36,471 bases of DNA, from IMG/VR virus record IMGVR_UViG_3300021091_004934, positions 1-36,471 of that record; one strand, written 5' to 3'. Source of the stretch: a virus. A model generated the notes under the pieces. That model saw only the letters and a program-made list of their open reading frames with translations. It had not been told where the DNA came from and ran no database searches. Of the stretch, positions 4,646 through 32,682 are shown in pieces. Made by a program: the position numbers and the translations under genes. Within the stretch, counting starts at the first letter, position 1. Each line of letters opens with the position of its first letter.

Positions 4646-7600
4646 GTGGGTGATTCTCTTTTTGACAAAATCCTGAATGGCGACGTCTCGATTATTCTTA
4701 CCCGAGATGAGCGCGATGACGGCAGACAGACTTCTGCCGCGTCGACCTCTGGCGTCTCTGAAAAGGCCATAGGCAGTCGTCTGGCTGGCCGCAGGGGCCT
4801 GGGGAGCGTCATCGGCAGTGGATTGCTTGCTCCTCCCCCTGGGATGGTCTACGTCGATATAACGGGGGCCATAGACGGTGACGGGGACGGCATTGTCTTT
4901 GATAGAACCAAGTTCCAGCGGCCCATTATCCCCCGCGCCGTTATCCCCAAGAGTGTCGCAGATGCCCAACAGACCCAAGCCAACGAGCGCGCACTACAAA
5001 ATGAGAGCAAGCGGCGCGGAGATGGCCCCAAAAAGCGCCGGGAGATGACCGACGCAGACGTTGAGCGGATGTACCAGGAGCGACAGGGCATGACCCCCGC
5101 ACGCGAGATGGCTGGCTCGCGGTCTAGGACAGATCGCTACCGGGTATTAGAGCGCCCCGTTGATGAGATCCTCGATGACCTAGAGATGACCGATGACGAA
5201 AAGAAGGTTGCCCGAGATCAATTGAGATTGAGCGTCAAGATGGCAACACAATTATTGAAGGCCCTGAAACAGGATTCGGTTCCTGAAGATATTTTCCCGT
5301 ATTTGACAAAGTCTGAAGCCATCGAAATGTTGGAGTCAATATCTCTCGCTATTTCGCAAAACGGAATTCCGATGATCTCGTTTAAGAAACATCCGTACTA
5401 TGCAAAATATTCGGGTGACAGGGACTATCAAAGTGTGGAGATACTGGATATTAATCAGATCGATGAGCTTTTGCAAAAAATAGCAGAATCAGAGAATATT
5501 CCGGTACGTGAAACCCTAGAACAGGAAGAATATACGAACTTTGTTAGCTCGCTAGCCGACTTAATATCTCCATCCATTGGTGGGAATGTCGACCCAAAGG
5601 ATACTGAAAGACTTTACGATCTTGCCATTTCTCTTGGTGTCGACTATGCCGTTTTAGACCTATATGCGGATAACCCCATCGCATTACTTATACGTTCGTT
5701 CTATGGCGGACAGGGGAAGCATGATGGCCAGGATCATCTTTCAACCGGTCGAGGATTTGATAGAAACGGGGAGTGGGCTGCTGGCTTGGCACGAATGAAC
5801 GAAATGCGGCGACAGCTAGAAGGAGCTCGCGAACTATTTAGTTACCTGATCAACAATCCAAAGACTACAAAAACAAAAGATGAGTTGATTGAGGAGTTCG
5901 GAGTTAGCGAACGTACATTTACCGCAATTCTTCGCAGATTCATGGCCTCAGATAAAAATAATCCATCGACATTATTTAACCCAACCGATGAAGAAATAAT
6001 GTCAGCAGTAGTCCATGATTTTGCTTTTAGTAATTTGAGTGCCTTTCTCGGTATGCAAATCAATAAGTGGGTTGAATCATCTATTAACGATCTCGGTATA
6101 GATGATCCAGATCTCCTAAAGGAGGCTAAGGCTCCGATCCAGGAAGAAGCCGAACGCCTGCGTAGTGGACTAAGGGGAATGAATACAGAAACATTAATGA
6201 GAACCTTTGGGACATTAGACGAATTTCTTGACTTTATTGATCCACGCGATGAAGATGGTCAGTACATCAATGGCAGCAAGTCAACGACAAAACAAATCAA
6301 AAGCATAAATAAGATAAACAATGCAGACATTGAACAGATAGTCGATGAAATTCCAAATCACCATATTGATGGTTCTAAATCAAGAACCGACTCCTATCCG
6401 GTTATTGGTCGCGACATAGAGAAAATTTTTACCGACCTTGAACTGACGGATGCGGAAAAAGCAATAGCTAGTAATCAGTTAATGGGGGACATCAAGAGGG
6501 TTGAAGCCCTGCTGCGCTTACTGAAGGATCCAAATATCGAGATGGATACGCCCGGTATTTCGCGTGAAGAAGCAATTCAGATGTTTGAGTCCATATCACT
6601 TTCCATTTCCCCAAATGGGACACCCATGATTTCATTCATGCCCCATCCAGTGCTCTCTCGCTTTGTTCCGCCTGGTCGTGATTATGGAAGTGTTTTGGTA
6701 CCGGGTATTGAGGTGTGGGAGAGCTTTCTTGACGAAATAGACAATCGTACTTCGTTCATGAGTCCTGATGAGGATTTTTTCCCCTCAGGAGAAAATGAAA
6801 GCAAAATCGCTATGAGCACTTTGCCTACGGTACGTATTAAAAAATATCTTGAAACAATGCAAGAGGCTTTCCCGATAGAGGGCGGTGAGTCTCTATCAGC
6901 AGAAGAGACGCGTAAAATACGAGGTGAAAATGCACTAAAGAGCAAAAACATGGGTTTGATTTTAGATTATGCCCCAGAGATAGGAAACATATTTAGCACC
7001 GATTCCGTAATTTCCATGATTATAACCTCAATCCTGTATCCAGAAGCCGGAACTCTGGGTATTCACGACTCCACAGAGCATCTTGCGGTGGGTCGAGGAT
7101 TTGATAGACACGGGGAGTGGGCTGCTGCTCTCGGCCTATTTGACTCTATTGATCCTGGGCCAGATGCCACTGAAGGAGAAAAAAATGCACATGCTGCTGC
7201 GATCTTGTCTTATCTGCCAAACGTGATAGGTCTAGTTTTAACGGAACTCGATACGGAATTTACTAAAGCATTCGGACCATATGATGCCGAAGAATCCAGC
7301 CCGGAACGACGCGACCGCAAAATATTAGCACGCAGAAGAATACGAGACGTATTCGACAGATTGAGGCAACTAACTTCTGAATCCAACAAACCCTCACGCG
7401 GTTACGTATCTGCAGCATTCACTGGGGAGGAACTGCTTCGATATTTTTCCCCACCTCGTGATGAAGAATCATCAATAGTTGGAAGCAAATCAACCACCGG
7501 TCGCTCCACCCCAATGCGCGACTTTAGCGCCGAGCAGATTGATGCGATATCAGCAGAAACCGCACGACATCACCTTAACGGGTCTGGTGCTCCCAGCGGT

Positions 7601-10600
7601 CCGATTGAATTAATAGGCCAAGAAGCCGCATTTGACCTAGATCGAACAGACCTTACTCCCGAACAGAAGAAAATTCTTTCAGATGCCTTGCCGGAAAGCC
7701 TGGACACTATTCGATCAGTAATCAACATGCTTGAGCGGGGAGAAGTTCCGGAGTGGACTCATCCTGGTCTTTCAACGGAGCAGGCTCTAAAAATGCTCAA
7801 ATCGTTTAAGGTATCTATTTCCTCCAATGGAATACCGATGATTACCTTTGATCCACACCCCCTGTATTCAACAGGTATTCCAATGGACAGAAATTGGTCC
7901 AAGGTAGAAGCACCTTCAGTGGATCAAATACGGGCAATGATAGAAAAATTGCGGGAATTCGGGGATAGAGATCCAGATGATGACTCACATGAGTGGGCCC
8001 TGTCGTTTTGGAAATATGCTTCAGGGGCAAGGCTTGGGTTCAACTATGGCTCATTGTTTGATGAACTATTTCCAGCCGGGGGCCTGTTAACTGAAGATGG
8101 GAAGTCCAACGCAGTAAGTCCAATAGCGAGCTTCCTGGTGGGGAAGATTGAATGGCAGATACCACAAAATATTCTTGACATGGTTTTAGCGCGCATGTTT
8201 GATCCTATGTTCAATACACATGACGTATTCGAACATCTGGCAACTGGTCGTAGCTTCGATAGACATGGCGAATGGGCGGCTATGGTTGGTGCTGCGCGCA
8301 GGGTTTACCATAATCCTGATATTAGCGAAAAAGATAAAAAAAGAATGCTGATTGATCTATTATTTAGTAGGACACGTCTTCTTAATCTCCAGGTCGATAC
8401 AGCATCGAAATCCGATTTGCCCGATTCAGACCTTGAAGATATCCGTGAGGAGATTGACGACGGTGACCTTTTTTTTGATAGCCCATCGCTGTACGCAAGG
8501 GTCTCAAGTTCTGAACTCATCGAACTGATTGATCCAAGTGATGAAAATGGACGACCGATTAATGGAAGTAAGTCCAAGACCAGCAGAACGATTCCACTGA
8601 ACGCATCTTCTGACTCTTTGTTATCCGACGTAGTGGCCGAAACCGCCCCCCACCACGTGCTGAGGGCCAGAGGGGTGAACCTGCGCCCAGAAGGCGAGCG
8701 CCAGAAAAACGAAGACGAAGCTAGTTTGGAAAAAACGACTGCTGATTTTGAGTTAAACGCAGCTCAAAGGGATATTGCTGCCCAGCAGAGTGAAGAGCGG
8801 TCGCGTAGGCGCGGTGAGATTGTTGTTCAGGATCCAATAAACAATCTGGCCAGACCATTTCCTCGGTCTCCATTTAAACGCCTTATTGCGGAGATGTCTG
8901 CAAAGCAAAACCGAACGGATTCTTCGGTCAGTGGTTCTAGAAGTCAAACGAGTTCGCGTATTGCTTCCGTAGCTGCGCGAACTATGTCCGACGTGGGTCG
9001 TGGTCGTGGCGATCTGGTGATCGAAAGGATTAAGGACCTGATTCGGGCACGAAAAAACGTTGAAGATCAACTTAGATATCTCGAATCAAAGCTTTCAGAT
9101 ATCGATGACGAAATGTTTGAAGAAAATGATGCTCGACACTCGCAGCTTGAGGATATAGGCGAAGGCATAGATGCCGAGATCAGGGAGATTACTAAGTCGC
9201 TTGGCTTAATGATTGAGAATCATCGAACAGCCGATATCGCCAGACAAGCGTCTTCACTTGCAAAGAAAATCATCGGGCTTGAAATGACTGGGAACCGCAG
9301 CCGCATATCTGAGCAATTTAACTTTACAGATGATGAAATGGGCAACATTTTAGAAATGCTGAATGTTGACACAAGGGCACTTAGAGAAATGTTGATTTTG
9401 GCACCAAGTACAAAGTCGCTACTGGACACGGTATATCAAATTAATAATCTGATTAGTGACGTTGGATACTACGTTACGATTGACGACAACTTTATTGACT
9501 TGGACGAAGATAATGATGAAATATCTAATTTGGCCCAAGACTTGATTAGTCATGCTGTTTCGATTGCTGCAAGAAAGAAGGGGTTGGACAGTATCGCGCG
9601 TACGGTCTTGGACGTTGAGTCGCGCCCAGACGACGACATGGTCGATTCGCCAATTGAAATCGGTCCCGGCAGTAAGTCGCGTACTTCGAGAACAGACATC
9701 GAAAAATATCTGGCAAACGATTTAACAGGCGAAGATACAATTGAAACGATTGTTGAGAGGTTCAATATTTCGCCACAGGAATTACAAAACATAGTTCTAC
9801 GAATGGGCGGCCTTCCAAAACTTAGGCGGAATCGTGGAATAAAGATAGGAAATCGTGGTCAGCAGCGTTTGACTGGAACATCGGAGCTCGAAAACTATCT
9901 ATTAGAAGGATTAAGTTCCGATGATACTGCCTCATCTTTGGCCAAAAGATTCAATATGCCGGTGGGAAGGGCTCGGTCGATTATTAATAGGATGGGTGGA
10001 ATTAGTAAGCTGCGTTCCGATAGGGGCATTGTGCCAAATAGTAATCGGACAGCAGATGAGGGAATACAAAAGCTTGAACAGCATCTGACCAGCTCCTTGC
10101 GTGATACCGACACAATAGAATCGCTTGCTAGTGAATTCGGTGTAACGTTTGGTGGGGCAATTTATCTAGTTAATAAACTCGGTGGTCTGAGAAAGCTTCG
10201 CAATAGAACAAGATTGAACTCTGGTGTAAGTGAATCAACAGCGTCGCGTCCGTCCGGACCGCAAACTAGCGCATTGCGTGAACGCTTGACTACTAGTCTA
10301 AGAGAAGAAGATACTATTGCTTCGCTGGCTGATGAATTCGGTCTCTCGGAAAATCTTGTTAAATATGAGTCTGAGAAACTCGGTGGTCTTAGAAGTTTGC
10401 GTGCTGCTTCTGGCGCAAAAGCATCTGGGCGAAAAGTCAATCGTGCCCAAGGCGCAGAACAGGATTTAGCAGATCATGTGCAAAATAATTTACGAGATAC
10501 CGACACCATGGCATCGCTCAGTAGAGAGTTTGATCTACCGCTAGATGTTGTTCGCTCCGTGACTGATGGTCTCGGCGGATTACGGCGCCTCAGGAGTACG

Positions 10601-12019
10601 AAAGGGAACGAAGTCAACAGTGGTAGTAAGTCACAGACGCGCATTGGCAAAGTCAGCAACAAGCCAATCGAAGTACTGGACTCCCTTGAATTTGCGCAAC
10701 TTAGCCAATGGTATCCCAATGAGGGTGGGGTCCCTGACCCGACTAGGGACGCCACTTCTCAGTATTCATTGCCGGTTTATGATGTTGACGGCAAACGTAT
10801 CGCATTTGGCACCAAGGGTCTTGGGAGGTTTGATCCAGACTTCGTAGACGAAGACGTTGAGATTATTCCGGTCAACCCATACCTGATAACTGGACACGGC
10901 GCAGATTCCTCACTGGGACAATCGTATGCAAGGATATTTTTTGACGCCATGCAGGGACAGGGGATCGAATCTGACGGCACTAATAAAAATCTTGGTCTGG
11001 TTGCAGCCTTACTGTATTCGGCATCACGCGGTGACGTCGAGGCGATGCAGGAGCTTGAGCGTCTAGCTTCAGTTGCTCGTGAGAAAATGATCCAGGAACG
11101 AAAGAAAGAGAAATTAAATCTGCTATCGTTCATGGGCGATGATCCACAAGATTTTAACTGGAAATATGATGGTGCCGATTATTTGGTGAATGCGGGCAGC
11201 GCCGCCAACGGCGAAGCCATTTTCCGTCCAGCAGGAATAGACGATCTTTTTTTGGTACACCAAACGTCTTATCAGCCGACATTTGATGAAGGCGGGAACA
11301 TTGTTCTACGTCCTGTGTCTGAATATTCGCCAATCGACCGAAATACGGGCAAGCCAATGATTGACCCAATCACGGGAAGGCTCGTTGACGTTGTGCAGAG
11401 AGAGACAATCCACTTCGCGCTAAATCATCTTGCTCAGCCGCATGAGATGAGGACTGTTGATGGAGATACTTACGTAATTATCGTACCACTACGTGACGTA
11501 TTGGACGCAAATCCTGGATCACTTGACAACCTATATGCCGTCGACACCTACCTGACGCCCAAGCCAGGCGAGCCGCTGGTAATCCCAATGAAAAGTGGAA
11601 AAGTTGTCAATCTGGCGGCAGATAATTCAAATAGCAGTGATGTTGTTAAAGCACTAGGTGATGTTGGGCGACAACACAATGGATCAGACACCTATGAGAC
11701 TCGTATCTTCCCTGGTGGTCGTCATTACTCTGCGGATGCGGTCGATAGGCGAGTAGCGTATTTGGCCAAAGTTGAAGTTCCAGAAAATTACCCAGAGTAT
11801 GAAGGCGGCGTCAGTGTTGGGATTCACCAAGGGCAACCGAATTGGTTCATAGAAAATGCTGTGCCGCACAGTGCAGTGGATTATCGCAGTGCGATGATGA
11901 CACCACCATACTGGTGGAGGCTATCGCCCAACTTCATATTGAGAATGTTTGATAGCGATGTATTTACAACCGGATCGCTTATTGAAATGTTTAAAGAGCG
12001 CGTTTTGAGAGTTTTATAG
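4646..12019 (+). CDS. Giant modular repeat protein, 2457 aa
   Basis: The function is unknown. Residues 1-156 include an EF-hand/dockerin-like acidic loop (DGDGDGIVFD, from residue 77). Three related modules of about 330-390 residues follow (from 157, 576 and 979), each with an ISxNGxPMI(S/T)F stretch and an HDxxxHLxxGRxFDRxGEWAA signature (from 359, 807 and 1192). Residues 1430-1674 are highly charged and helical. Five HTH-like repeats of about 47-60 residues ending in GGLxxLR span 1684-1987. The C-terminal 465 residues form a separate domain with VHQTSYQP and RETIHFALNHL. A tag GS[KR]S[RTKQ]T stands at residues 157, 543, 576, 946, 1307, 1430, 1675 and 1993, mostly at module borders. There is no signal peptide. 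It may be a polyvalent or minor-capsid-type protein delivered with the DNA, possibly cut at the tags; this is inference. Confidence 0.85.
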   Translation: MGDSLFDKILNGDVSIILTRDERDDGRQTSAASTSGVSEKAIGSRLAGRRGLGSVIGSGLLAPPPGMVYVDITGAIDGDGDGIVFDRTKFQRPIIPRAVIPKSVADAQQTQANERALQNESKRRGDGPKKRREMTDADVERMYQERQGMTPAREMAGSRSRTDRYRVLERPVDEILDDLEMTDDEKKVARDQLRLSVKMATQLLKALKQDSVPEDIFPYLTKSEAIEMLESISLAISQNGIPMISFKKHPYYAKYSGDRDYQSVEILDINQIDELLQKIAESENIPVRETLEQEEYTNFVSSLADLISPSIGGNVDPKDTERLYDLAISLGVDYAVLDLYADNPIALLIRSFYGGQGKHDGQDHLSTGRGFDRNGEWAAGLARMNEMRRQLEGARELFSYLINNPKTTKTKDELIEEFGVSERTFTAILRRFMASDKNNPSTLFNPTDEEIMSAVVHDFAFSNLSAFLGMQINKWVESSINDLGIDDPDLLKEAKAPIQEEAERLRSGLRGMNTETLMRTFGTLDEFLDFIDPRDEDGQYINGSKSTTKQIKSINKINNADIEQIVDEIPNHHIDGSKSRTDSYPVIGRDIEKIFTDLELTDAEKAIASNQLMGDIKRVEALLRLLKDPNIEMDTPGISREEAIQMFESISLSISPNGTPMISFMPHPVLSRFVPPGRDYGSVLVPGIEVWESFLDEIDNRTSFMSPDEDFFPSGENESKIAMSTLPTVRIKKYLETMQEAFPIEGGESLSAEETRKIRGENALKSKNMGLILDYAPEIGNIFSTDSVISMIITSILYPEAGTLGIHDSTEHLAVGRGFDRHGEWAAALGLFDSIDPGPDATEGEKNAHAAAILSYLPNVIGLVLTELDTEFTKAFGPYDAEESSPERRDRKILARRRIRDVFDRLRQLTSESNKPSRGYVSAAFTGEELLRYFSPPRDEESSIVGSKSTTGRSTPMRDFSAEQIDAISAETARHHLNGSGAPSGPIELIGQEAAFDLDRTDLTPEQKKILSDALPESLDTIRSVINMLERGEVPEWTHPGLSTEQALKMLKSFKVSISSNGIPMITFDPHPLYSTGIPMDRNWSKVEAPSVDQIRAMIEKLREFGDRDPDDDSHEWALSFWKYASGARLGFNYGSLFDELFPAGGLLTEDGKSNAVSPIASFLVGKIEWQIPQNILDMVLARMFDPMFNTHDVFEHLATGRSFDRHGEWAAMVGAARRVYHNPDISEKDKKRMLIDLLFSRTRLLNLQVDTASKSDLPDSDLEDIREEIDDGDLFFDSPSLYARVSSSELIELIDPSDENGRPINGSKSKTSRTIPLNASSDSLLSDVVAETAPHHVLRARGVNLRPEGERQKNEDEASLEKTTADFELNAAQRDIAAQQSEERSRRRGEIVVQDPINNLARPFPRSPFKRLIAEMSAKQNRTDSSVSGSRSQTSSRIASVAARTMSDVGRGRGDLVIERIKDLIRARKNVEDQLRYLESKLSDIDDEMFEENDARHSQLEDIGEGIDAEIREITKSLGLMIENHRTADIARQASSLAKKIIGLEMTGNRSRISEQFNFTDDEMGNILEMLNVDTRALREMLILAPSTKSLLDTVYQINNLISDVGYYVTIDDNFIDLDEDNDEISNLAQDLISHAVSIAARKKGLDSIARTVLDVESRPDDDMVDSPIEIGPGSKSRTSRTDIEKYLANDLTGEDTIETIVERFNISPQELQNIVLRMGGLPKLRRNRGIKIGNRGQQRLTGTSELENYLLEGLSSDDTASSLAKRFNMPVGRARSIINRMGGISKLRSDRGIVPNSNRTADEGIQKLEQHLTSSLRDTDTIESLASEFGVTFGGAIYLVNKLGGLRKLRNRTRLNSGVSESTASRPSGPQTSALRERLTTSLREEDTIASLADEFGLSENLVKYESEKLGGLRSLRAASGAKASGRKVNRAQGAEQDLADHVQNNLRDTDTMASLSREFDLPLDVVRSVTDGLGGLRRLRSTKGNEVNSGSKSQTRIGKVSNKPIEVLDSLEFAQLSQWYPNEGGVPDPTRDATSQYSLPVYDVDGKRIAFGTKGLGRFDPDFVDEDVEIIPVNPYLITGHGADSSLGQSYARIFFDAMQGQGIESDGTNKNLGLVAALLYSASRGDVEAMQELERLASVAREKMIQERKKEKLNLLSFMGDDPQDFNWKYDGADYLVNAGSAANGEAIFRPAGIDDLFLVHQTSYQPTFDEGGNIVLRPVSEYSPIDRNTGKPMIDPITGRLVDVVQRETIHFALNHLAQPHEMRTVDGDTYVIIVPLRDVLDANPGSLDNLYAVDTYLTPKPGEPLVIPMKSGKVVNLAADNSNSSDVVKALGDVGRQHNGSDTYETRIFPGGRHYSADAVDRRVAYLAKVEVPENYPEYEGGVSVGIHQGQPNWFIENAVPHSAVDYRSAMMTPPYWWRLSPNFILRMFDSDVFTTGSLIEMFKERVLRVL
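5114..6271 (+). repeat. Giant protein module A1
   Basis: Residues 157-542 of the giant protein. It starts with GSRSRTD, continues with DILDDLEMTDDEKK-type helices and the ISQNGIPMISFKKHP stretch, and carries HDGQDHLSTGRGFDRNGEWA from residue 359. Its GRGFDRxGEWAA coding DNA (5747-5783) matches module A2 (7091-7127) at all but one of 37 bases. Confidence 0.75.
6371..7480 (+). repeat. Giant protein module A2
   Basis: Residues 576-945, starting GSKSRTDSY. It has the same order as A1: LELTDAEKAIASNQL, ISPNGTPMISFMPHP, then HDSTEHLAVGRGFDRHGEWA from residue 807. It is joined to A1 by a 33-residue linker with a GSKS tag at each end and a conserved HH pair (NHHIDG). Confidence 0.75.
7580..8563 (+). 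repeat. Giant protein module A3
   Basis: Residues 979-1306, the most diverged copy: DLTPEQKKILSDALPE, ISSNGIPMITFDPHP, then HDVFEHLATGRSFDRHGEWA from residue 1192. Its leading tag has decayed to GSGAPSG, but the linker before it keeps GSKSTT and the HH pair (RHHLNG). The linker after it starts GSKSKT and again has an HH pair. Confidence 0.75.
9695..10606 (+). repeat. Five tandem HTH-like repeats in the giant protein
   Basis: Each unit reads roughly L-x-D-T-I-x-S-L-A-x-E-F-x(7-10)-K-L-G-G-L-x-x-L-R. Examples are DTIETIVERFNISPQ with GGLPKLR, DTASSLAKRFNMPVG with GGISKLR, DTIESLASEFGVTFG with GGLRKLR, DTIASLADEFGLSEN with GGLRSLR, and DTMASLSREFDLPLD with GGLRRLR. The helix-turn-helix spacing and basic ends suggest nucleic-acid binding. 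Units are separated by short basic linkers. Confidence 0.7.
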
Positions 12020-12110
12020 ATAGAAGCACATCAAGTATTTTATTTGCTAATTACGCGACCTGGATGTTGTAATTTAATGATGTTGACGAACCTGGCTAAG
12101 GACTAATTGG

Positions 12111-12452
12111 ATGAAAAAGGCTTCAAAGACTAGACACATAAATCACTTATGCAATATTGTCCTACGGGTCAAGGGGTCGGTTAAAAACGAAATAGTAGAC
12201 GCTGCGCGAAAACACAAAATGCCGCTTTCACAGTATGTAATGTATTGCGTCTGGGAACACATGCGCTCTGAGCGCGGAATTCCTCAGCCTGGTTCTGCTC
12301 AGTTCGCCGTCCCTGATACTAGGACAGAATTGGAAGCATACTTGAGGGGTGAGCAAGTTCTAATGCCATGCGGAAAACTATCATGCGATATGGTTGTAAG
12401 TGAATTTCAAAATATGGAGTTTTGTGAAACTTGCAATGTGAGGATCAAGTGA
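12111..12452 (+). CDS. RHH-like DNA-binding protein with C-terminal CxxC
   Basis: 113 residues. The N-terminal half fits a ribbon-helix-helix fold: strand NIVLRVKGS, helix VKNEIVDAARKHK, helix PLSQYVMYCVWEHMR. The C-terminal half has CGKLSC and CETC, four cysteines that could bind zinc. It resembles in plan the 22077-22400 protein on the other strand (RHH plus a terminal C..C knuckle), so the two may be distant paralogues. It follows the giant gene by 91 bases and overlaps the next gene by GTGA. Confidence 0.6.
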   Translation: MKKASKTRHINHLCNIVLRVKGSVKNEIVDAARKHKMPLSQYVMYCVWEHMRSERGIPQPGSAQFAVPDTRTELEAYLRGEQVLMPCGKLSCDMVVSEFQNMEFCETCNVRIK

Positions 12453-12832
12453 AAATCGATATAAAAGATGTATCTGTGTTTTCTAATCCGGCTGATGCTC
12501 TAGTATTTTTCGTAGACGACAGTGGTAATGCCCCAAAACAGGCGACTATTGCTGTTCCAGATATTTGTCAAGTAGCCCAGATGATGTTTTTGGCGAACTG
12601 TTTTCCCGAAGCGGGATTGGTTTTTACTACTCTAAATAATCAGAAAATTATCGTTTCTCGTCCGAAGTCTGGTCACGACATAATCGCAACCATTTTTGAT
12701 CTGATCCAAGAATACGAAATCAAATCTGTCAACATTGCGCCAACTGATTTTTTCGATTCCGAGATTGTCGCAGCAATACAACAAGCGAACGAATTAGATG
12801 TAACTATGGTCTTTTGTAAATCACTGACGTAA
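12449..12832 (+). CDS. Hypothetical alpha/beta protein, 127 aa
   Basis: The family is not recognised. It starts at the GTG at 12449, overlapping the TGA of the previous gene, with GAGG seven bases upstream. The sequence alternates predicted strands and helices (ALVFFVDD, ATIAVPDICQVAQMMFL, GLVFTTLNNQKIIVSR, DIIATIFDLIQEYEIK, VTMVFCKSLT), which looks like a compact alpha/beta fold. It is the last gene before the convergent terminator region, and coupling suggests it works with the RHH-like protein. Confidence 0.6.
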   Translation: MKIDIKDVSVFSNPADALVFFVDDSGNAPKQATIAVPDICQVAQMMFLANCFPEAGLVFTTLNNQKIIVSRPKSGHDIIATIFDLIQEYEIKSVNIAPTDFFDSEIVAAIQQANELDVTMVFCKSLT

Positions 12833-12837
12833 ATGCG

Positions 12838-12900
12838 GAGCCCCTGCCGCGGAGGGGGGTGGGCAGGGGCTCAACGCACGCGGAGGTAGGGGTGACCTCC
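12838..12900 (+). terminator. Strong hairpin pair between convergent genes
   Basis: GAGCCCCTGCC (12838-12848) pairs perfectly with GGCAGGGGCTC (12862-12872) around a G-rich loop. A second stem GGAGGT (12882-12887) / ACCTCC (12895-12900) follows. The pair lies between the plus gene ending at 12832 and the minus SNF2 gene ending at 12938, so it probably stops transcription from both sides. No T tract follows the first stem. Confidence 0.65.
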
Positions 12901-12937
12901 CAGGGCCATGTTAGCGCCAAAAAACAACGATGCAAAC

Positions 12938-14920
12938 CTAGGGGGCAGAATCCAGCAAACTAAATATAATGTTTGTTGCATCCGTTGAATCAAATACTGT
13001 ATCACCGTCAACGGCAATATCAATAACAGATCGTTTTTTATCGATTAGTGAATATATTTCTTGGTCGATGGTCCCATTGGTCATCATGTAGGTTGCGGTG
13101 ACTGAACCTTTTTGCCCAATTCTGTGACACCTGCTGTATGTCTGGTCTACGTCGGCGGGTGTCCACGGTAATTCAACAAAAAGAACATCTTGAGAAGCAG
13201 TGAGTGTATGCCCGGTCTTTGCTGCCTGAATAGACAGAACGATGACAGGCGCATCTTCGCATGAAGCTGTTTGAAATTTGTACTTCATGTCTTCGACGGT
13301 TTGAACATCCATTTGTCCCTGTATCTTGAGACCACCATATTTGTCTGCAAGTTCATTCACAATTTCTCGATGATGTGCCGCAACAACTACCTTGCGTCCC
13401 TCAGAGATACGTTCGTCAATCCACTCGTGAACCATGTCCATTTTTGCTTTGGCGGCGATTTTTCGCAATACACTTATTCGGAGAAGATGGTCGTGGGCCT
13501 CCGCTTTTAGTCTTGCCTTTACTGCGGCATTACCAACAGGAAGTCCCATTTCTGCGGCTATCCTCTTGGCCTGCTCAACTAGATAGTTTACGATATCTGC
13601 CTGGGCTCGCGAATATTCCTTCATAATTGAAGGGTTGCCATCAACCAGAAGTGGATTATGGACAACTGGGGGTAGGTCTTGCATGACCTGGTCTTTTGTG
13701 CGTCGTATATAGCATGTTGAGCGAAGCTTGTCGTTGAGTTCCTCTAGATTCGAGTTGCCTTCGAGGTGCCACTGCCCCCACTTGTCTCTGTAGGCCGCGC
13801 AGTACCTTCGATAAAAACCCCACAATCCACCAAACTTATCTAGACGCCCAATAATATCTAACTGTGGGGCGTATTCTGCTGGCCTATTTGTCACTGGTGT
13901 CCCCGTTAGACACAACACAACAGCAGATGCTGATGCGGATTTGACGATTTTGCGGGCGGCCCTAGTTCGTTGCGCGTCCATTGATTTACAGTAATGAGAC
14001 TCATCAAAAACATATGCGTTATGTTTCATTAAATTCTTTTCCCATGCGGCCAGATTGCTATACCCGATAACGACAACGTCGTATGTTCCGAACATAGGAA
14101 TCTGCTTGCGGTTGAGGCAAACTTCAACAATGCGTTCTGGGAAAAATCTATTGTATTCATTTTTCCAGTTTAAAACCAGATTTGGTGGGCATACGACTAC
14201 TGCTGGATATGAGGGAAATCCATTGAAGTTCTCATAATCCTGATGAAGGTACTCAAGGGTGGCCATCGCCTGCAGGGTCTTGCCCAAACCCATCTCGTCA
14301 GCAATAAAGGATCTGCGCGCATTGGCGGCATAGGCAATACCCGCACGCTGATAGGGAAGCAACGACCCATTGAGTGTAGTTATATTAATTTCAGCATCAG
14401 TGGATCGACTTGCCTCACGGAGGGCAGAAAGTTCGGCCACAATTCCGTTAGCGACACTCATAACATCATCGCTGAGCTCTTGACGAAAAGTGTTTGCCCA
14501 TTTGATAACGGATTGAGAAGCGGAAAGTGGAGCCCTCCACGCCTTCGTATCGGCGTCCCATGTAATTCCATCAATCTGCTTTACTGATCGAACCATTACT
14601 TGGTCGTATTTAAATGAAAGTATAAAATAGTCGCCGTCGACACTGATGCCATCACCGGGGTTTAGATGTAAGGGCATATTGAAGGCCAGCACCTCGTTGC
14701 TAATTTGAAAATCGTGCTGTAGCGCGAATTCGCGAGCACGTTCAAGGCTTGAAACTGGCACTCGCCAAACTTTTCCGAGCTTATCCCATTTAGCTCCTTG
14801 GATTTTCTTTATCTGATTCACCCGAGATTCATCAAATGGGAAATCAAGGACAAGAAAATCATCGAGCAAGTAGAGGGTGGATGCCTGCTGGCCGTTCTGA
14901 TTTCTCTGAATACCGCTCAT
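12938..14920 (-). CDS. SNF2-family helicase with HARP-like repeats
   Basis: 660 residues. Two similar N-terminal segments (around 22-68 and 97-143, each with a K/T-x-WRxP core) resemble the HARP repeats of SMARCAL1-type annealing helicases. Motif I is ADEMGLGKT (207-215), motif II is FDESH, motif III is LTGTP, and the C-terminal RecA-like lobe ends in YSRCHRIGQKG. It is an ATP-dependent DNA translocase that probably remodels or anneals DNA at replication forks. Its ATG lies 62 bases inside the upstream deaminase gene, so they are co-expressed. Similar enzymes are frequent in large phages. Confidence 0.93.
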   Translation of the reverse strand: MSGIQRNQNGQQASTLYLLDDFLVLDFPFDESRVNQIKKIQGAKWDKLGKVWRVPVSSLERAREFALQHDFQISNEVLAFNMPLHLNPGDGISVDGDYFILSFKYDQVMVRSVKQIDGITWDADTKAWRAPLSASQSVIKWANTFRQELSDDVMSVANGIVAELSALREASRSTDAEINITTLNGSLLPYQRAGIAYAANARRSFIADEMGLGKTLQAMATLEYLHQDYENFNGFPSYPAVVVCPPNLVLNWKNEYNRFFPERIVEVCLNRKQIPMFGTYDVVVIGYSNLAAWEKNLMKHNAYVFDESHYCKSMDAQRTRAARKIVKSASASAVVLCLTGTPVTNRPAEYAPQLDIIGRLDKFGGLWGFYRRYCAAYRDKWGQWHLEGNSNLEELNDKLRSTCYIRRTKDQVMQDLPPVVHNPLLVDGNPSIMKEYSRAQADIVNYLVEQAKRIAAEMGLPVGNAAVKARLKAEAHDHLLRISVLRKIAAKAKMDMVHEWIDERISEGRKVVVAAHHREIVNELADKYGGLKIQGQMDVQTVEDMKYKFQTASCEDAPVIVLSIQAAKTGHTLTASQDVLFVELPWTPADVDQTYSRCHRIGQKGSVTATYMMTNGTIDQEIYSLIDKKRSVIDIAVDGDTVFDSTDATNIIFSLLDSAP

Positions 14921-15299
14921 GTATCAACCTGCTAATTCGTGATTTTCCCCAACCCGTAGGCTCTGTCCATATTGCCATGTAGACCCCGTTCTCAATGAGC
15001 ATAGCCTGACATCTGGCGCATGGTCTGGCTAAGCCTATTTCTCCGCTCCTGGTGAGTCGCGCAACATATATTGTTGCTCCAGATGGGTCCCCGGCTTTGC
15101 GCATGGCCACCTCTTCGGCGTGGTAAGAAACATCCCCCACTTCGACCTTAGACGGATGATTCCTGTATCTGTTGACGCCAACGGAAAGCACACGTCCACC
15201 CTTTACCAGAACAGCACCAACCCTCCACTGGGAGTGAGACGCATTGGAGCACTCGTCTACGGCATAGGTTAGCCACTTCAGCTCTGAAGTAGAAAGCAT
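14859..15299 (-). CDS. Cytidine/deoxycytidylate deaminase-family enzyme
   Basis: 146 residues with both zinc motifs of the family: YHAEEVAM (His ligand and catalytic Glu) and RPCARCQAML (two Cys ligands). WRVGAVLVKGGRVLSVGVN is the usual substrate-pocket strand. It hydrolyses the amino group of a cytosine nucleoside or nucleotide, probably feeding dUMP/dTTP synthesis during infection; the substrate cannot be told from sequence, and an acidic dCMP-specific insert is not obvious. Its ATG overlaps the WhiB stop (TAATG), and its 3' end overlaps the SNF2 gene. Confidence 0.85.
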   Translation of the reverse strand: MLSTSELKWLTYAVDECSNASHSQWRVGAVLVKGGRVLSVGVNRYRNHPSKVEVGDVSYHAEEVAMRKAGDPSGATIYVARLTRSGEIGLARPCARCQAMLIENGVYMAIWTEPTGWGKSRISRLIHERYSEKSERPAGIHPLLAR

Positions 15300-15658
15300 T
15301 ATATATCCCGTTCGGAGGCGAGTTTCGCTCCGGGTTCGGCTCCGCCTCCTAGCTGAAAGGCTTTTCGTAGTGATGCTTTTCTTGCCTCTTCGGCTTCACG
15401 GGAGGTAATCTCATCGCCAACCTTAGTAATGGTCGCCTTAGATTTCGTGGGGCGACGGAGACGTGGCGAAACTCCGCCCCAGATTCCAAACTCTGTTTCA
15501 TTTGAGTCGATGGCGTAAATCAGGCATTCCATTCTTACCTGACACTCTCTGCATACCGCTATCGCCGTAGAGATTCCAGGGTCACCGGGCTCCAAATAAA
15601 ACAGACCCGGATCTAATCCACGACAAAGGGCATCTTTGAAAAATGCTGGTGAACCCAT
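15299..15658 (-). CDS. WhiB-family iron-sulfur transcription factor (copy 2)
   Basis: The start is fixed at the ATG at 15658 by GGAGG five bases upstream. Cluster cysteines are ALCRGLD and CRECQVRMEC, followed by GIWGG and the basic patch SPRLRRPTKSK. The C-terminal 50 residues (EEARKASLRKAFQLGG) are longer than in the other copies and lack a known motif. It is the first gene of an operon with the deaminase and SNF2 helicase, driven by the promoter at 15675-15703. A WhiB heading a DNA-metabolism operon suggests redox- or time-dependent control of host or phage transcription. Confidence 0.92.
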   Translation of the reverse strand: MGSPAFFKDALCRGLDPGLFYLEPGDPGISTAIAVCRECQVRMECLIYAIDSNETEFGIWGGVSPRLRRPTKSKATITKVGDEITSREAEEARKASLRKAFQLGGGAEPGAKLASERDI

Positions 15659-15674
15659 GTTCCCTCCTAAGGCA

Positions 15675-15703
15675 ATGATACGAACACGTGTTGCTGCCGT
15701 CAA
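15675..15703 (-). promoter_or_regulatory. Promoter of the WhiB2-deaminase-SNF2 operon
   Basis: On the minus strand TTGACG (15703-15698) and TATCAT (15680-15675) are separated by exactly 17 bases, a near-consensus sigma-70/SigA-type promoter. The spacer contains the 10-bp perfect palindrome AACACGTGTT (15683-15692), a plausible operator. The predicted start point gives a leader of about ten bases before GGAGG and the ATG. Confidence 0.75.
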
Positions 15704-15801
15704 GTCTGAATATAGAAAACTAAATAAAGTATTTATCTTTACTTAAGCAGCCAGTCGAACTCAGCCTGGGCCAAATCGGTCAGCATTATTCGCTTCCCTC
15801 T

Positions 15802-17751
15802 TCACTTGATAGGACACGCACCTGTCGTACAATCGTCAAGTTCGACCAGGCCGTCGAATGCCGGACGATGTAGCGACACGCCGAAATCAATTTTGCTCAA
15901 TATTTTCTCGTACGCCTCTTTGGTGATTTCCTCGTATGGGGGCAGTGGGAAGTTGTGGTCGGTATGCAGGAGGAACGACACCGACTTTACGGAATCATCG
16001 TAGTTCTTGGAAAGCCAGTCCTTGATTTCCGCAAGTTCTTCCTTGCGATAATAGACGGTTACTGATACGGCATTGTCTGCCCACTCGGTCTGCATCTTCT
16101 TTACCCACTCCAACTGAGCCACAGCAGTCATGTCCTTTGCGAGAACAGAACCTTCTGGGGATTCGCATGGGAACTCAACGACAAAGCGTGTGTGGTCTTC
16201 ACGTCCGTCAATGCCAACGTCGTACTGAACCCTGTAGCCTCGCTTGCGACACGCATCCACCAACGGGTCAGACGAACCGAAGCGAACACGCCGGATGTAA
16301 TACTGAGCAAATGCTGGGTGGATTCCTGGAGTTACGCCCGGGAGTAGCGATAGTGTCCCAGAAGGCTGAACAGTAGTGAGACGTACCGATACGGGGAGAC
16401 CATTTTCATTGGAGTACGCGGAATCAAGTGCTTCAAGTGCTTTGTAGGCAGGGTCAAGCCAAGTGATCTTCTCTGCAGGGCACTGAAGGATTCCGGTGAT
16501 CGACTGACCAAGGCGAGCATTCTTCTGGACGATCTTCGTAGTCTTCTCGTATGGATAGTTCAGGCGCGTGATCTGCTTCTGCGTCTTGTAGAGAAGGTAC
16601 GAGATGTCGGTCAGTTGCTCTAGAGAATCAATGTTGGGCAGGAAGATGGTGGAGAGGTTGCATGACTCGCCATCACCCAGTGCGATTTCGGCGCAAGGGT
16701 TGTATCCCTCAATGGTATGGTCTGGCTTTGCCTGACCGATGCGACCATATTTGCGTGCCAAACGACGATTTACGAGGCCATATGGTTCGCCAGAGCCGTC
16801 ATAGCCCTTCCACAGCTCTTTTTGAATCATTCCGAAGTTGTCTGCATAAATGCTGTTGTTGGAGTTTGCTCGCCATGCCGGGACGGTTCCGGTTGACCAG
16901 TTCTTCGCGCGAAGGAAGAGAACATCGTCGGGGTCACCAATCGCGATTTGTGCTGAACGACGACTTGAGCCAGAAACAACAATGCGACCAATGATGTTGC
17001 AGATGTCCAGAACATCAATGGAGCGTAACTTTTTGCCTTCGGGGGGCTTTTTCTCATAGTCCACGCGGTTCTCAAAAATCTTGCAGATATCAGCGATCCC
17101 CTCAATGAGCGCTCCCGGGCCAGACGCAGTGCCACCGAAGGTCTTCAACGGAGCTCCGTACTCGCGGATCAGGATTGTTGAATACGAGAACGACTTACCA
17201 GTCTCAAAGTATGACTTCAGGACAGCGTGAAGTAGGCGACGCCAGCCTTGACGCGAGTCAGGGACAATGATGTCGGCATCGTTGGAGCGTTCGTGTGTGA
17301 TTGATACGCCCGTCTTGACTTTGGGCAGTTCATGAATTTTTGAACGCTCAACCGAAAAGCCGACACCACCACCGAGCATGAGGTAGTCAAAGAGGAGTTC
17401 AAAGTCTTCAATGCTCTCAATATTGGTGAAATAGCAGTTGTTAAGACTCGTTCCAGAGAACTTGTGTGTTAGCGGAGTACCCAACTGCCACAGTGACCGA
17501 CCGGAGAATGAGCAACGAAGGTTAAACATGTGGTCAAAGAGTCGCTCCGCCTCCTCTTGTGTATAGGGCACGCCAATGTCAATAGCGCCATTGATGACAC
17601 GCTGAATTGTTTCCGGCCATGACTCAGTGTCGCCATTTTCTTTCTTGCGACTGTAGGTGCGCAAGAAAACAATTTCACCCATACCATTGAATCCCCATGG
17701 CGGTGTTTGTTCTGAATATGAACGGACAAAATCATCGTTAATGCGAGCCAT
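15802..17751 (-). CDS. nrdJ: Adenosylcobalamin-dependent (class II) ribonucleotide reductase
   Basis: 649 residues. RCSFSGRSLWQLGTP and NNCYFTNIESIEDF lie near the N terminus, GGGVGFSVERSKI follows, the radical site NPCAEIALGDGESCNLS is near residue 350, then VQPSGTLSLLPGVTPG, and the redox-active C terminus is DDCTTGACPIK. These are the marks of the monomeric class II enzyme that makes deoxyribonucleotides with adenosylcobalamin and without oxygen. No small subunit gene is present, as expected. It is slightly shorter than the classical Lactobacillus enzyme. AAGGAA precedes the ATG. The phage must rely on host cobalamin. Confidence 0.95.
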   Translation of the reverse strand: MARINDDFVRSYSEQTPPWGFNGMGEIVFLRTYSRKKENGDTESWPETIQRVINGAIDIGVPYTQEEAERLFDHMFNLRCSFSGRSLWQLGTPLTHKFSGTSLNNCYFTNIESIEDFELLFDYLMLGGGVGFSVERSKIHELPKVKTGVSITHERSNDADIIVPDSRQGWRRLLHAVLKSYFETGKSFSYSTILIREYGAPLKTFGGTASGPGALIEGIADICKIFENRVDYEKKPPEGKKLRSIDVLDICNIIGRIVVSGSSRRSAQIAIGDPDDVLFLRAKNWSTGTVPAWRANSNNSIYADNFGMIQKELWKGYDGSGEPYGLVNRRLARKYGRIGQAKPDHTIEGYNPCAEIALGDGESCNLSTIFLPNIDSLEQLTDISYLLYKTQKQITRLNYPYEKTTKIVQKNARLGQSITGILQCPAEKITWLDPAYKALEALDSAYSNENGLPVSVRLTTVQPSGTLSLLPGVTPGIHPAFAQYYIRRVRFGSSDPLVDACRKRGYRVQYDVGIDGREDHTRFVVEFPCESPEGSVLAKDMTAVAQLEWVKKMQTEWADNAVSVTVYYRKEELAEIKDWLSKNYDDSVKSVSFLLHTDHNFPLPPYEEITKEAYEKILSKIDFGVSLHRPAFDGLVELDDCTTGACPIK

Positions 17752-17830
17752 CGGAAGGTTCCTTCTGTGTGCAATTCGTGGAGGACCCAGTTTACCTCAG
17801 GACAAAATAATGAAATTGTCTACTGTAAAA

Positions 17831-18145
17831 CTAATCTTGTTTTAGTAAACCAATTCTTATTGCCTCATCCCTTGTAATACTGGTCCCCCTCCTATGAACG
17901 AGCACCTTAGCACGAGTGTATGGAGTGATGTCGCGCTCCTCCCAATAATCTTCTTCCAAAAAATACATTGGAGTTGCTATGTTGGTATTGAAATCAAATC
18001 CGACAACGTGGTCGATCTGTTTTTCACCAGCACAATCCCCTGTTGGGTGCCCACATACGGGGCACGGCTCTCGATCTGCCCTGATTATGCTGTAGCCATC
18101 TCCGCGAGCACCGGAGCCATTGAGGTAGTCGAAGAAGTATCCCAT
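17831..18145 (-). CDS. Hypothetical CxxC protein
   Basis: 104 residues from the ATG at 18145. A knuckle CPVCGHPTGDC (residues about 28-38) could bind zinc. The rest (YFLEEDYWEERDITPYTRAK, then TRDEAIRIGLLKQD) is acidic and aromatic and is not recognised. It lies between the tRNA and the reductase gene, all on the same strand, about 80 bases upstream of the reductase start. A function in nucleotide metabolism is only suggested by position. Confidence 0.65.
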   Translation of the reverse strand: MGYFFDYLNGSGARGDGYSIIRADREPCPVCGHPTGDCAGEKQIDHVVGFDFNTNIATPMYFLEEDYWEERDITPYTRAKVLVHRRGTSITRDEAIRIGLLKQD

Positions 18146-18169
18146 GCTCAAATTTTACAAGATAATAGT

Positions 18170-18241
18170 GAGCCAGACGGGAATTGAACCCGCGACCTGC
18201 ATTTTATAAGAATGCTACTCTAACCACTGAGTTACTGGCTC
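18170..18241 (-). tRNA. tRNA-Ile(UAU)
   Basis: A complete cloverleaf on the minus strand: acceptor arms GAGCCAG/CTGGCTC, D stem ACTC/GAGT, anticodon stem GCATT/AATGC with loop CTTATAA, T stem GCGGG/CCCGT with loop TTCAATT. The anticodon is TAT (18206-18208), which reads AUA isoleucine. CCA is not encoded. Most bacteria read AUA with a lysidine-modified CAU tRNA, so a phage UAU tRNA is notable; AUA codons appear in several genes here. Confidence 0.9.
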
Positions 18242-30560: not shown

Positions 30561-30862
30561 TCGTAGCCCCACATTTGCGCCAAGGTTGGTCTAGACGGAG
30601 AAATACCACGACGCCTCTGTTCAGCTGCCAATTGCCTACTAGTGAGACCCGCCCAAACTCCGTGCATATCTACCGTAGGGAACTCAAGGGCGTACTCCAG
30701 ACATTGTTCCCTGACCCGACATTCTGCACACATCGCCCTAGCTGCCACGATGTAAGTAATGTCTTTATGTTCTTTGGGGAACATCATTACCGTTTTTCCT
30801 TTGCAGGATGCTTCGTCCATCCATGCGTTTACTGAATCATTCTGATTTTGTTCGTTTTCCAT
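30557..30862 (-). CDS. WhiB-family iron-sulfur transcription factor (copy 4)
   Basis: 101 residues. Cysteines are in ASCKGKT and CAECRVREQC, with the turn GVWAGLTSRQLAAEQRRRG. The usual GG of the turn is AG here. It starts 26 bases inside the Ntn hydrolase gene and overlaps the DUF305-like gene downstream. The N terminus is acidic and Asn-rich. It is divergent from the other three copies. Confidence 0.9.
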   Translation of the reverse strand: MENEQNQNDSVNAWMDEASCKGKTVMMFPKEHKDITYIVAARAMCAECRVREQCLEYALEFPTVDMHGVWAGLTSRQLAAEQRRRGISPSRPTLAQMWGYE

Positions 30863-31499
30863 TTACCTTTGTCCGTGTCGATGGGGTGGCCATTGACGCT
30901 TCCTGAAAAACAACATTGTATGGATAACCGCTATGGGGGTCATTTTTTGCCGCAACCGCAATCGCTTTAATTGCGTTCTTTTTTGCCTGCTGGAGTGTTT
31001 GTAGTTTGGGGCACAGAATCCCTAGCGCACCTAATGCATACGCGGCCCCCGTACCAATGGCATAAACTCCACCACTGTCAGAAAACCACGAGTAATCATT
31101 ATCCACCTGATAGATGACGCGATTTATCGCAACCAAGAGGGTAGATCCAGCTTCGATTGAACGCGAAATGTTTGAGTCCGGGGGCACGTAGGAGTAGCCA
31201 TTTGTCTCGTAGCACGACCGAAGGGCGGGTATGAATTTCGTAGTAAAAAACTCATCTAACTTTTTACCGCGCAGTGACGGGGGTGGCATTGGTGGCTGAA
31301 ATGCGTATGTAACGATGTTGATGGCCCTCACATCGCCGGAGACCCCAATATGGTACGAGCCAACGGAGGCAATCTTTGGCATTGACGATGGGAGGGTTTG
31401 AATGCTCGATGTGTAACCATCAGGATCAACTGTCGATATACGACTGTCGGCACACAGAACGGCGTAACCGTCGCCACATATGCCGACAATGGTTGTCAT
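30837..31499 (-). CDS. Proteasome/HslV-like Ntn hydrolase
   Basis: 220 residues from the ATG at 31499, which lies just after the stop of the phosphoesterase gene. After Met removal the protein would start TTIVGICGDGYAVLCADSRI, with Thr1 as nucleophile, Asp17, and a Lys at 41 (MPKIASVGSYHIGVSGD) in the place of the proteasomal Lys33. GGVYAIGTGAAYALGALGI is the conserved G-rich strand. This matches proteasome beta/HslV-type threonine proteases, which form rings. No ATPase partner gene is present, so it may process phage proteins or borrow the host unfoldase. There is no propeptide. Confidence 0.8.
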   Translation of the reverse strand: MTTIVGICGDGYAVLCADSRISTVDPDGYTSSIQTLPSSMPKIASVGSYHIGVSGDVRAINIVTYAFQPPMPPPSLRGKKLDEFFTTKFIPALRSCYETNGYSYVPPDSNISRSIEAGSTLLVAINRVIYQVDNDYSWFSDSGGVYAIGTGAAYALGALGILCPKLQTLQQAKKNAIKAIAVAAKNDPHSGYPYNVVFQEASMATPSTRTKVNGKRTKSE

Positions 31500-31500
31500 T

Positions 31501-32682
31501 TCAGGAGACCTGATTTGCCTGCCGCTGAGATGAAATAAACTCTTTGCCACGGAACATGCCCCAGCCAGAGTAGATAGGCATGCATTCGTATGAGAACTTA
31601 TGATCACCGCTGTCTTCGTACATTACAATCCCCAGACCCTGCTGCCAGTTCTCGTGGCGCGTCAGTGGTCGTCCGTCCAAATCAACGCCGCCCTTGGTGC
31701 TGGGGATCGCCCCATCGATCCGTGCTAAACACCCAGGGGACGCGGCCATGATTGTCCGTGGCCCATCCCAATCTTCGCGTGTCTTGAACGCACATTCGAT
31801 ACGGTGTATGTGTCCGTAAATCACGCTGCTTTTCTCTGCGTTCAGATAAACGTGAGCCGTGGATCCAGAGCTCTTGACACGGTCGCCATGAATAATGCGA
31901 AGCTTCTGGTTGACCCAAATGTCTGATGCCGGATATCCTGGTCTGTACTCTACGCCGAACTCGTCCATTCGGCACAGGTAAGGAACGGACATAACGGGCC
32001 AAGAGTCGGGCGTATTGCCCTTTCGAAGACCATATGCGGCACCAGCATTCTGAACGATGTACTTGGGCATGCGTTCTTCATGATTTCCGGCAAGCCAGAC
32101 GATCTGCGCATTGGGGGCAGCGTGGCGCATTTCCGCGCAAAAAGTTGTCGCACGGTCAATCGTCGCCTGCGTGGTAAGCGCATAGCTCGGATAGGTGACG
32201 TACTTCCCCATTTCTGGAAGATCGAGGTTGTCACCAACACAAACAATCAACTCTGGCTTTAGGTACTTGATGACGTTCAGCGAAACACTAATTGCCTCTT
32301 CGTCGTGGGTTGGCTCCAGGCAGCTCTCTTTGTTGCGGTAATAACCGAACTGGATATCGGGAACAACGACGCATGTCTTGAATGAGTCTGATGTGCGTGG
32401 TGATGACGTATTTTTCGGGAGCTTAATCTCGGGACCACGCTGAATTATCTGCCACTCGGGCCCGGATTCCCATTTGGGGGAAATTTGAATGGCGGCGAGA
32501 TCGACTACCTGGGCATCGCCGTTCTCGTCTTTGAGCATTGACTGGTAAATGGATATTCTTTTGATATCCCCGACTTCGTCAATGTCGATATTCTTGGATG
32601 CGAGTAAATCAGCGATTGCTCCCAATGTTTTGGCTTTGGCTTCTTTGCTTTTTTCTTCGTTAATTTTACCCGAAAGACTCAT
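31501..32682 (-). CDS. Calcineurin-like metallophosphoesterase
   Basis: 393 residues from ATG 32682 with GGGGAGA upstream. Metal and active-site motifs stand in order: PDIQFG (108-113), GDNLDL (150-155), GNHEER (199-204), HGD (265-267) and GHIHR (290-294). The N-terminal 100 residues are an unfamiliar helical extension. The arrangement resembles phage DNA-repair-type or cyclic-nucleotide phosphoesterases; the substrate is not predictable. It overlaps the upstream gene by ATGA and is followed at once by the Ntn hydrolase. Confidence 0.88.
   Translation of the reverse strand: MSLSGKINEEKSKEAKAKTLGAIADLLASKNIDIDEVGDIKRISIYQSMLKDENGDAQVVDLAAIQISPKWESGPEWQIIQRGPEIKLPKNTSSPRTSDSFKTCVVVPDIQFGYYRNKESCLEPTHDEEAISVSLNVIKYLKPELIVCVGDNLDLPEMGKYVTYPSYALTTQATIDRATTFCAEMRHAAPNAQIVWLAGNHEERMPKYIVQNAGAAYGLRKGNTPDSWPVMSVPYLCRMDEFGVEYRPGYPASDIWVNQKLRIIHGDRVKSSGSTAHVYLNAEKSSVIYGHIHRIECAFKTREDWDGPRTIMAASPGCLARIDGAIPSTKGGVDLDGRPLTRHENWQQGLGIVMYEDSGDHKFSYECMPIYSGWGMFRGKEFISSQRQANQVS

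Follow-up and report, generated by a model that had tools for sequence, protein, structure and literature searches.

The virus record IMGVR_UViG_3300021091_004934 of IMG/VR, 36,471 bases long and of class 'linear' (here called the window, meaning this whole stretch), contains a giant open reading frame (ORF) in which a short tag, GS[KR]SxT, recurs eight times. Our main finding is that the tag is specific to the phage: relatives have recurring words of their own, which is not visible from the window sequence alone. From the comparison with these relatives, we think it somewhat probable that the giant ORF encodes a polyvalent-type polyprotein, with cassettes behind a shared leader, in which the lineage-specific tag is most likely a proteolytic processing site. 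The initial annotation had taken the tag for a cleavage site or a shared assembly peptide. This reading has gained strong comparative support, as lineage-specific tags were found at homologous junctions, several giants of one phage are tagged in relatives, and a prohead protease stands there beside the giants or is fused to them; the cleavage itself we infer. In the mechanism that we propose, separate effector or virion cassettes would be strung together behind one shared leader, and a phage-encoded protease would read the tag and cut the chain, probably during head assembly. The cutting would allow many injected proteins to be made and delivered from few genes; the reader of the tag would change between lineages and the junction words would follow.

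The frame of the giant ORF is uninterrupted, and the eight tags are at exactly the residues given by the initial annotation:

4646..12019, plus strand: giant ORF of 2,457 amino acids (aa) with a GTG start and eight GS[KR]SxT tags
5114..5131, plus strand: tag 1, GSRSRT, residue 157, start of module 1
6272..6289, plus strand: tag 2, GSKSTT, residue 543, end of module 1
6371..6388, plus strand: tag 3, GSKSRT, residue 576, start of module 2
7481..7498, plus strand: tag 4, GSKSTT, residue 946, in the low-confidence tail of the module 2 model
8564..8581, plus strand: tag 5, GSKSKT, residue 1307, end of module 3
8933..8950, plus strand: tag 6, GSRSQT, residue 1430
9668..9685, plus strand: tag 7, GSKSRT, residue 1675, start of the repeat region
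10622..10639, plus strand: tag 8, GSKSQT, residue 1993

By composition 0.009 such tags are expected, shuffling gave a mean of 0.008 and a maximum of one (2,000 shuffles), and a six-frame translation of the window shows GS[KR]SxT in this frame alone. The eight 12-mers that encode GS[KR]S all differ, and serine is written TCN ten times and AGY six times. Because no two of the encoding 12-mers are the same and both serine codon families are used, it is the peptide that is conserved and not a DNA repeat.

Relatives were collected by searching viral contigs with an alignment of the three modules of the window ORF, which gave 42 loci, many with an ORF of 1,600-4,250 aa (loci and contigs are referred to below by L and G numbers). 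Over-represented words were counted in 19 of the 42 loci, and most phages had a recurring word of their own: GSKSxT in L012 (11 copies) and L013 (8), GLAS in L020, STRS in L015, GFAS-type words in L018, L026, L028, L031 and L043, and LSSG-type words in L032, L035, L044, L050 and L051. Only other repeats were seen in L042 and L045. The contig of L013, G002 (93,761 bases), has 30 GS[KR]SxT tags spread over seven ORFs (3077, 1163, 2853, 548, 3035, 3693 and 1536 aa), six of which exceed 1,100 aa. In a control with ten contigs, the totals of the phage's own word (mean of letter permutations in brackets) were 11 (0.5) for GSKS in G001 and 9 (0.3) for GFAS in G011, each within one ORF; 27 (2.0) for GSKS in G002, 37 (1.9) for STRS in G003 and 29 (1.8) for GLAS in G004; and, for LSSG, 23 (1.2) in G006, 20 (1.4) in G007, 18 (1.8) in G008 and 22 (2.0) in G009. 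The highest single permuted words reached 15 in G003 and 11 in G002. A table of 14 contigs by six words was near-diagonal, with G005 as the exception, and one short motif was common to several proteins of the same phage in G002, G003, G004, G006-G009, G010 and G028. The words were picked per contig after viewing the data, which the permutation control and the shuffle test below address in part.

A wider survey was based on the prohead protease family Peptidase_S78 (S78) and covered the best 80 of at least 546 relatives together with eight contigs. It gave 41 scored non-redundant protease-bearing sets, after five of 46 sets below 1,200 aa had been dropped; two of the 80 loci had no core by the anchor used, and G008 and G010 were left out for the same reason. 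A significant word of the form xx[KRAS]S (p≤0.01, 200 shuffles) was present in 25 of the 41 sets, and the significant words include GMRS (15 copies in L156), GMAS, SMRS, GFSS, GMSS and GLRS. The filter for low-complexity words could not score SSRS; SSRS in L041 and L146 and LSSG in G007 were missed by filter or pattern and have no p-value of their own. The largest ORF was smaller in unscored or non-significant loci than in the others (median 1,232 aa, n=14, vs 2,125 aa, n=21). The scored survey imposes the final serine; an unrestricted count returned the same kind of words together with Pro/Met-rich ones, repeats and a few others. The tags are real, are selected as peptides and, in relatives, are common to several large proteins of one phage.

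Most of the words have serine in position four, and GSKS, STRS, SSRS, GMRS, GFAS and GLAS have only this last serine in common, which suggests a cut immediately before this serine or close to it. The word LSSG, which is preceded by R or K in 69 of 110 copies, can be accommodated as (R/K)-L-S-S-G. The common serine and the Ser/Thr-rich composition of the tags would also suit a modification site in linkers, for example for O-glycosylation or phosphorylation. We regard this as improbable, since such a motif would not obviously change by lineage while keeping its position at the junctions.

That position was examined in alignments between tag classes. Among proteins that carry two or more tags in 13 contigs (G005 was left out), the other phage's own tag lay within 8 residues of the aligned position for 90 of 189 tags, as compared with a mean of 7.5 and a maximum of 21 when the tags were re-placed at random (1,000 trials). 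The junction at window residue 576, HHID-GSKS-RTDSYP, corresponds to QRN-GLAS-RT-GLAS-RTDR in G004, KRI-GFAS-RTDAVN in G011 and DTQ-STRS-RTDTYL in G003, and the junction at residue 1993, GSKSQTRIGKV, to GSKSTTRIGSV in G002, LSSGRIGTV in G007 and GFASTSSRTNT in G011. Inside the cross-class aligned blocks tags were depleted (193 vs a random mean of 324 and minimum of 264, 1,000 trials). When tag-to-tag fragments were matched to other proteins, 228 of 456 extrapolated ends lay no more than 15 aa from a tag or a terminus in the protein matched; random placement gave a mean of 79 and a maximum of 95 (500 trials). These junction, block and fragment-end counts are not independent, as both directions were counted and several LSSG contigs are close relatives. 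The tags delimit shuffled cassettes, and the alignments show that other relatives have a different four-residue word in their place at homologous junctions.

The shuffling of cassettes raises the question of whether recombination left the tags behind as by-products, or whether they are neutral linkers. We consider this very improbable, because almost all copies are encoded differently (26 of 30 tag-encoding stretches are distinct in G002 and 32 of 35 in G003) and one word is uniform across unlike proteins of a phage. An origin as a DNA-level repeat or by recombination was set aside on this codon diversity.

Within the window chain, the following parts lie between the tags:

4763..4948, plus strand: leader domain, residues 40-101, KAIG...PPPGM.YVDITGAIDGDGDGIVF....RPIIPRAVIP, with an EF-hand-like DxDxDG loop recognized by eye
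5132..6271, plus strand: module 1, HDxxxHLxTGRGFDRxGEWAA domain, between tags 1 and 2
6290..6370, plus strand: 27-aa spacer between tags 2 and 3
6389..7480, plus strand: module 2
7580..8563, plus strand: module 3, preceded by a decayed tag
10640..12016, plus strand: C-terminal cassette

The chain thus contains several unlike domains: the leader, three copies of one domain, repeats and the C-terminal cassette. Tags 157/543, 576/946 and 1307 flank the three domain copies, the second and third of which are 28 and 32% identical to the first; the third begins at a decayed tag-like GSGAPS at residue 979. Window residues 1431-1870 align with residues 1830-2269 of G001 over equal lengths, so that by our arithmetic the window tags 1430 and 1675 fall at the G001 tags 1829 and 2073. 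The tag at 1993 opens the final cassette (1993-2457), which has internal counterparts in the giants of G007 (663-1120, tag 665) and G002 (2306-2768, tag 2306), so it is preceded by a tag there as well. The statement of the initial annotation that the tags stand at module boundaries is borne out by these comparisons. Its view of the repeats (~65 aa each, from residue 1675) as helix-turn-helix units is not, as the region of about 1675-1990 gave only weak family scores. Tag 4 is in a segment with pLDDT (predicted local distance difference test) below 50, consistent with an exposed linker in the model. Tag pairs 33 aa apart occur in the window, in G001 (415/448, 804/837) and in G002 (548/581, 1092/1125), and if the tags are cut the 27-aa spacer would come off as a small peptide. 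The leader with its DxDxDG loop was found by an iterated hidden Markov model in proteins of 8 of 15 contigs, which include the window and other tag classes; the LSSG lineages escaped this search, as did G001, where the contig begins within the giant.

The modules themselves have few matches. A Pfam search of the window ORF gave LysM at 22.1 bits for the whole protein (cut-off 20.9), although no individual stretch reached that value, and a plant DUF that scored below its cut-off. The whole ORF had no match at E 1e-5 among 50,697 phage records; at E 10 there were 193 records, and among the 40 listed were a 31-residue motif in mycobacteriophages and a stretch of one Pelagibacter phage. Fold searches returned nothing at E≤0.001 for the model of module 2 (pLDDT 77.8) against PDB and BFVD, or for that of the C-terminal cassette (pLDDT 63.5) against PDB. 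Mycobacteriophage Sebata (Bixzunavirus) gp107 has the motif HDxxxHxxTGRxFDRHGE of the window modules; unlike the giant, it is 433 aa long and has no tag. Its residues 22-274 are matched at 57% by Rhodococcus phage E3 gp205, a 'structural protein'. Short matches to the module stretch HD...GRGFDRHGEWAA were also noticed in Actinoplanes and Micromonospora genomes (L223, L224, L225), possibly in prophages. In Sebata (L055), [RK]TAG recurs in the head-region proteins gp89, gp90, gp98 and gp99; control words occur 0-2 times, but TAG[RK] occurs 6 times, so that this is a weak signal. By eye, Sebata gp99 has a prohead-protease-like domain at the N-terminus of a longer chain.

The giants of relatives connect the family to polyvalent proteins, which Iyer et al. 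(2017) described in phages and conjugative elements, with processing of the chain by a zincin or an assemblin as their proposal (PMC5512222). The 3,693-aa protein of G002 has ArdC-N at 218-330, MPTase-PolyVal at 357-481 and RNase_T at 618-809, with a KTSC match below the cut-off at 1864-1920. Judged by its domains, it is a polyvalent protein in the sense of Iyer et al. as far as the accessible part of that paper defines it (PMC5512222). Its tags are at residues 160, 191, 573, 885, 1164, 1585, 1833, 2557 and 3032. The best stretches of Pfam matches in the G002 giants lie between tags, and none in the 3,693-aa protein spans one. These giants are placed between the portal/protease and the capsid genes, but the counterpart of the window giant in G002 is on the opposite strand. 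The relatives' giants resemble the published chains in being multidomain with ArdC-N, MPTase-PolyVal and nuclease domains. They differ in the tag, as no boundary tag or shared site is named for the published chains in the accessible part of the paper (PMC5512222). The window ORF matches none of the Pfam domains of the Iyer et al. set; PF18818 was found in 7 of 16 contigs and not in G000.

Three kinds of enzyme are candidates for the cutting, and we rank the S78 prohead protease first, the N-terminal nucleophile (Ntn) hydrolase of the window second and the zincin metallopeptidases in relatives' giants third. One or more HExxH stretches occur in many of these giants, but zincins were rejected as a universal cutter since no HExxH is present in the ORFs above 1,000 aa of the window or G001. 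On the minus strand of G002 the order of genes is the portal, a 468-aa S78 prohead protease (E 1e-12) and the 3,693-aa giant. S78 was found in 11 of 29 contigs. Three of them (G002, G003 and G023) have it as a separate frame, 462-491 aa long, whereas the frame that holds it is 1,078-3,381 aa long in the other eight. In the G004 giant the protease (aligned to ~444) is followed by the leader at 442-495 and by a tag at 526. The first tag past the fused protease is at 656-682 in G006, G007, G009 and G010, at 699 in G008 and at 1179 in G028, so that all seven fused proteins examined have a tag following the protease. No own-lineage tag was found in the separate proteases of G002, G003 and G023.

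A prohead protease that cuts several head or ejection proteins at one short motif is known from T4, phiKZ and SPN3US, and in SPN3US the motif AXE accounts for 14 sites in nine proteins (PMC5694885, PMC7411985, PMC10052503). As far as the accessible parts of these papers go, the motif there is also in the capsid protein and cutting removes propeptides, whereas in the relatives studied here the capsid protein has no tag, and the tag, which is swapped between lineages, parts cassettes of giant chains. The protease here is Pfam Peptidase_S78, and phiKZ gp175 is given in the same accessible text as the type of MEROPS S80.

Several observations weigh against processing of the tags by a prohead protease, or against the generality of the tags. 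The capsid protein (437 aa in G002, phrog_10) keeps [FI]K-S[IV]G at one position in GSKS, STRS and LSSG phages alike, SVKS follows the S78 domain in 70 of the 80 loci surveyed (the best 80 of at least 546), and no enrichment of [IVF]KS was found in the giants. Tags were also seen in a 1,469-1,629-aa protein, called tape-measure-like here from its position and length alone, in 8 of the 8 contigs where it was seen; this argues against a prohead protease because an enzyme confined to the prohead should not meet that protein. No tag was found in G012, which has a fused protease. Among the 29 contigs, no S78 gene was found in the window, G001, G015 or G016, and no portal, terminase or capsid gene was found among the scanned ORFs of the window and G001. 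Only a single tagged protein was seen in the window clade (window, G001). G005 has no clear tag (GFAS 0, permutation mean 0.4), and in the word counts of the 19 loci L023 and L039 had no recurring word and L042 no tag-like word. The words of some survey sets are weak or mixed; L150 and others mix GMSS, GMRS and GLRS.

The tag is not what marks the capsid maturation site; the site there is of a K-S type and is independent of the tag. Its lysine is present in 6 of 8 proteins and is moved or lost in G004 (GLAS) and G005, and the eight contain no capsid protein of a GFAS phage. In Cantare, DalanDe and GMA6, the match to the G002-type capsid protein begins at residue 98 or 99, right at the [FI]K-S[IV]G site, while in other Gordonia phages the match to the same protein runs from residue 2. 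From these sequences the specificity of S78 looks constant while the tags vary, and the enzyme seems to keep a K-S preference that fits GSKS and not LSSG. Since the K-S site is constant while the tags vary, and since the tape-measure-like protein is tagged, a different or additional reader of the tag is possible. Because neither the capsid site nor the protease site follows the tag, a reading in which S78 alone does the cutting was demoted.

The same S78 family is present in cultivated actinophages: Gordonia phages DalanDe, Gray and GMA6, Brevibacterium phage Cantare and Streptomyces phage Gilgamesh. As in the relatives of the window, the protease gene is near portal and capsid genes, and it is within a 1,633-aa protein in DalanDe (gp27) and separate in Gray (gp34). 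The word ExKS stands out in DalanDe (11 vs 1.34) and Gilgamesh (8 vs 0.55) and is probably the S78 maturation motif of these phages. ExKS was observed in the N-terminal part of the capsid protein of all five (GMA6, Cantare, Gilgamesh, DalanDe and Gray; L139-L143) and in the protease. Among the structural proteins sampled from the cultivated actinophages, none showed a conspicuous junction word of giants. Gilgamesh (L141) has at 4764-18638 a 4,624-aa hypothetical protein between the portal-MuF and S78 protease genes, possibly a similar giant.

The tagged tape-measure-like protein and the capsid sites that do not track the tags would also be explained if the tag were an address. A lineage-specific adaptor, scaffold or chaperone would then bind its copies, so that the giants and the tape-measure-like protein could be loaded, unfolded or threaded in assembly and ejection, and the repetition would provide avidity or one handle per cassette. 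The tape-measure-like protein would share with the giants the route of ejection rather than the head, and a leader domain that is shared as well would suit an address. A binding tag, however, need not sit at junctions, yet the tags avoid homologous blocks and delimit cassettes, and untagged separate proteases beside seven fused ones with a tag following are what is expected of a cut site (G012, fused, has none). We therefore see the address as possible but rather unlikely, and retain processing as the preferred explanation of the tags.

Cutting could also be done by a soluble enzyme in the cytoplasm before assembly, and the window encodes one that the initial annotation had proposed for this task:

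30837..31607, minus strand: Ntn hydrolase, proteasome beta-like, candidate processing enzyme (PF00227, E=5e-7)

Its likely true start is Met37 at 31499 (MTTIVGI...ADSR), where the conserved relatives begin. Relatives were found in 10 of 16 contigs including the window, two of the ten (window and G015) being near-identical strains. Thr1, Asp17 and a lysine are kept in all nine aligned proteins, and we take these to be the N-terminal threonine, Asp17 and the catalytic lysine of the proteasome/HslV type. A soluble enzyme could reach both the giants and the tape-measure-like protein. The gene was not found, however, in the tagged contigs G002, G003, G007, G023 and G028, which are possibly incomplete, or in the untagged G012; no neighbourhood or fusion link with the giants was seen; and in a whole-contig Pfam search the family cut-off was passed in 1 of 13 contigs, though the window ORF itself passes. 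The proposal thus stands as far as the enzyme is real and widespread, and it remains a candidate, with S78 and the zincins within giants equally or better placed in relatives. Cutting of the tags by the Ntn hydrolase instead of the prohead protease appears unlikely to us.

Outside these genes, the minus strand of the window at 12938-17751 carries genes for a ribonucleotide reductase that has a B12-type insertion domain and for an SNF2-type helicase; the two enclose dCMP deaminase-like and WhiB-like genes. The WhiB-like gene suggests an actinobacterial host. In G002, 77291-78442 (plus strand) and 24149-25042 (minus strand) both match phosphoadenosine phosphosulfate reductase families.

Polyvalent proteins and prohead-protease motifs were already known. 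In the open-access literature searched (subscription journals and preprints being outside its scope) we found nothing that describes junction tags specific to a lineage in giant phage proteins, and phage-specific junction tags across giants appear new within that literature. As a tentative but plausible picture drawn from the sequences, tailed phages, probably of actinobacteria, may encode much of what they inject in a small number of polyproteins, up to 4,250 aa long, that are parsed at a four-residue mark private to the phage. Mark and reader would change together, so that all junctions of a genome are rewritten to the new word, with cassettes still being exchanged and re-tagged. If true, double-stranded DNA phages would have a polyprotein strategy like that of picornaviruses, in which the cleavage code evolves. 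The junction word offers a readable map of cassette borders and hence of candidate injected effectors, a map that may extend to hundreds of contigs (at least 546 S78-bearing stretches), and from the tags one can predict precisely which peptides mass spectrometry should show. The system is, moreover, a natural experiment, as the recognition site and some reader have apparently changed together several times, so that sequences might reveal the specificity. Should the tag be a cut site, the standing guess on how polyvalent chains are divided becomes directly testable.

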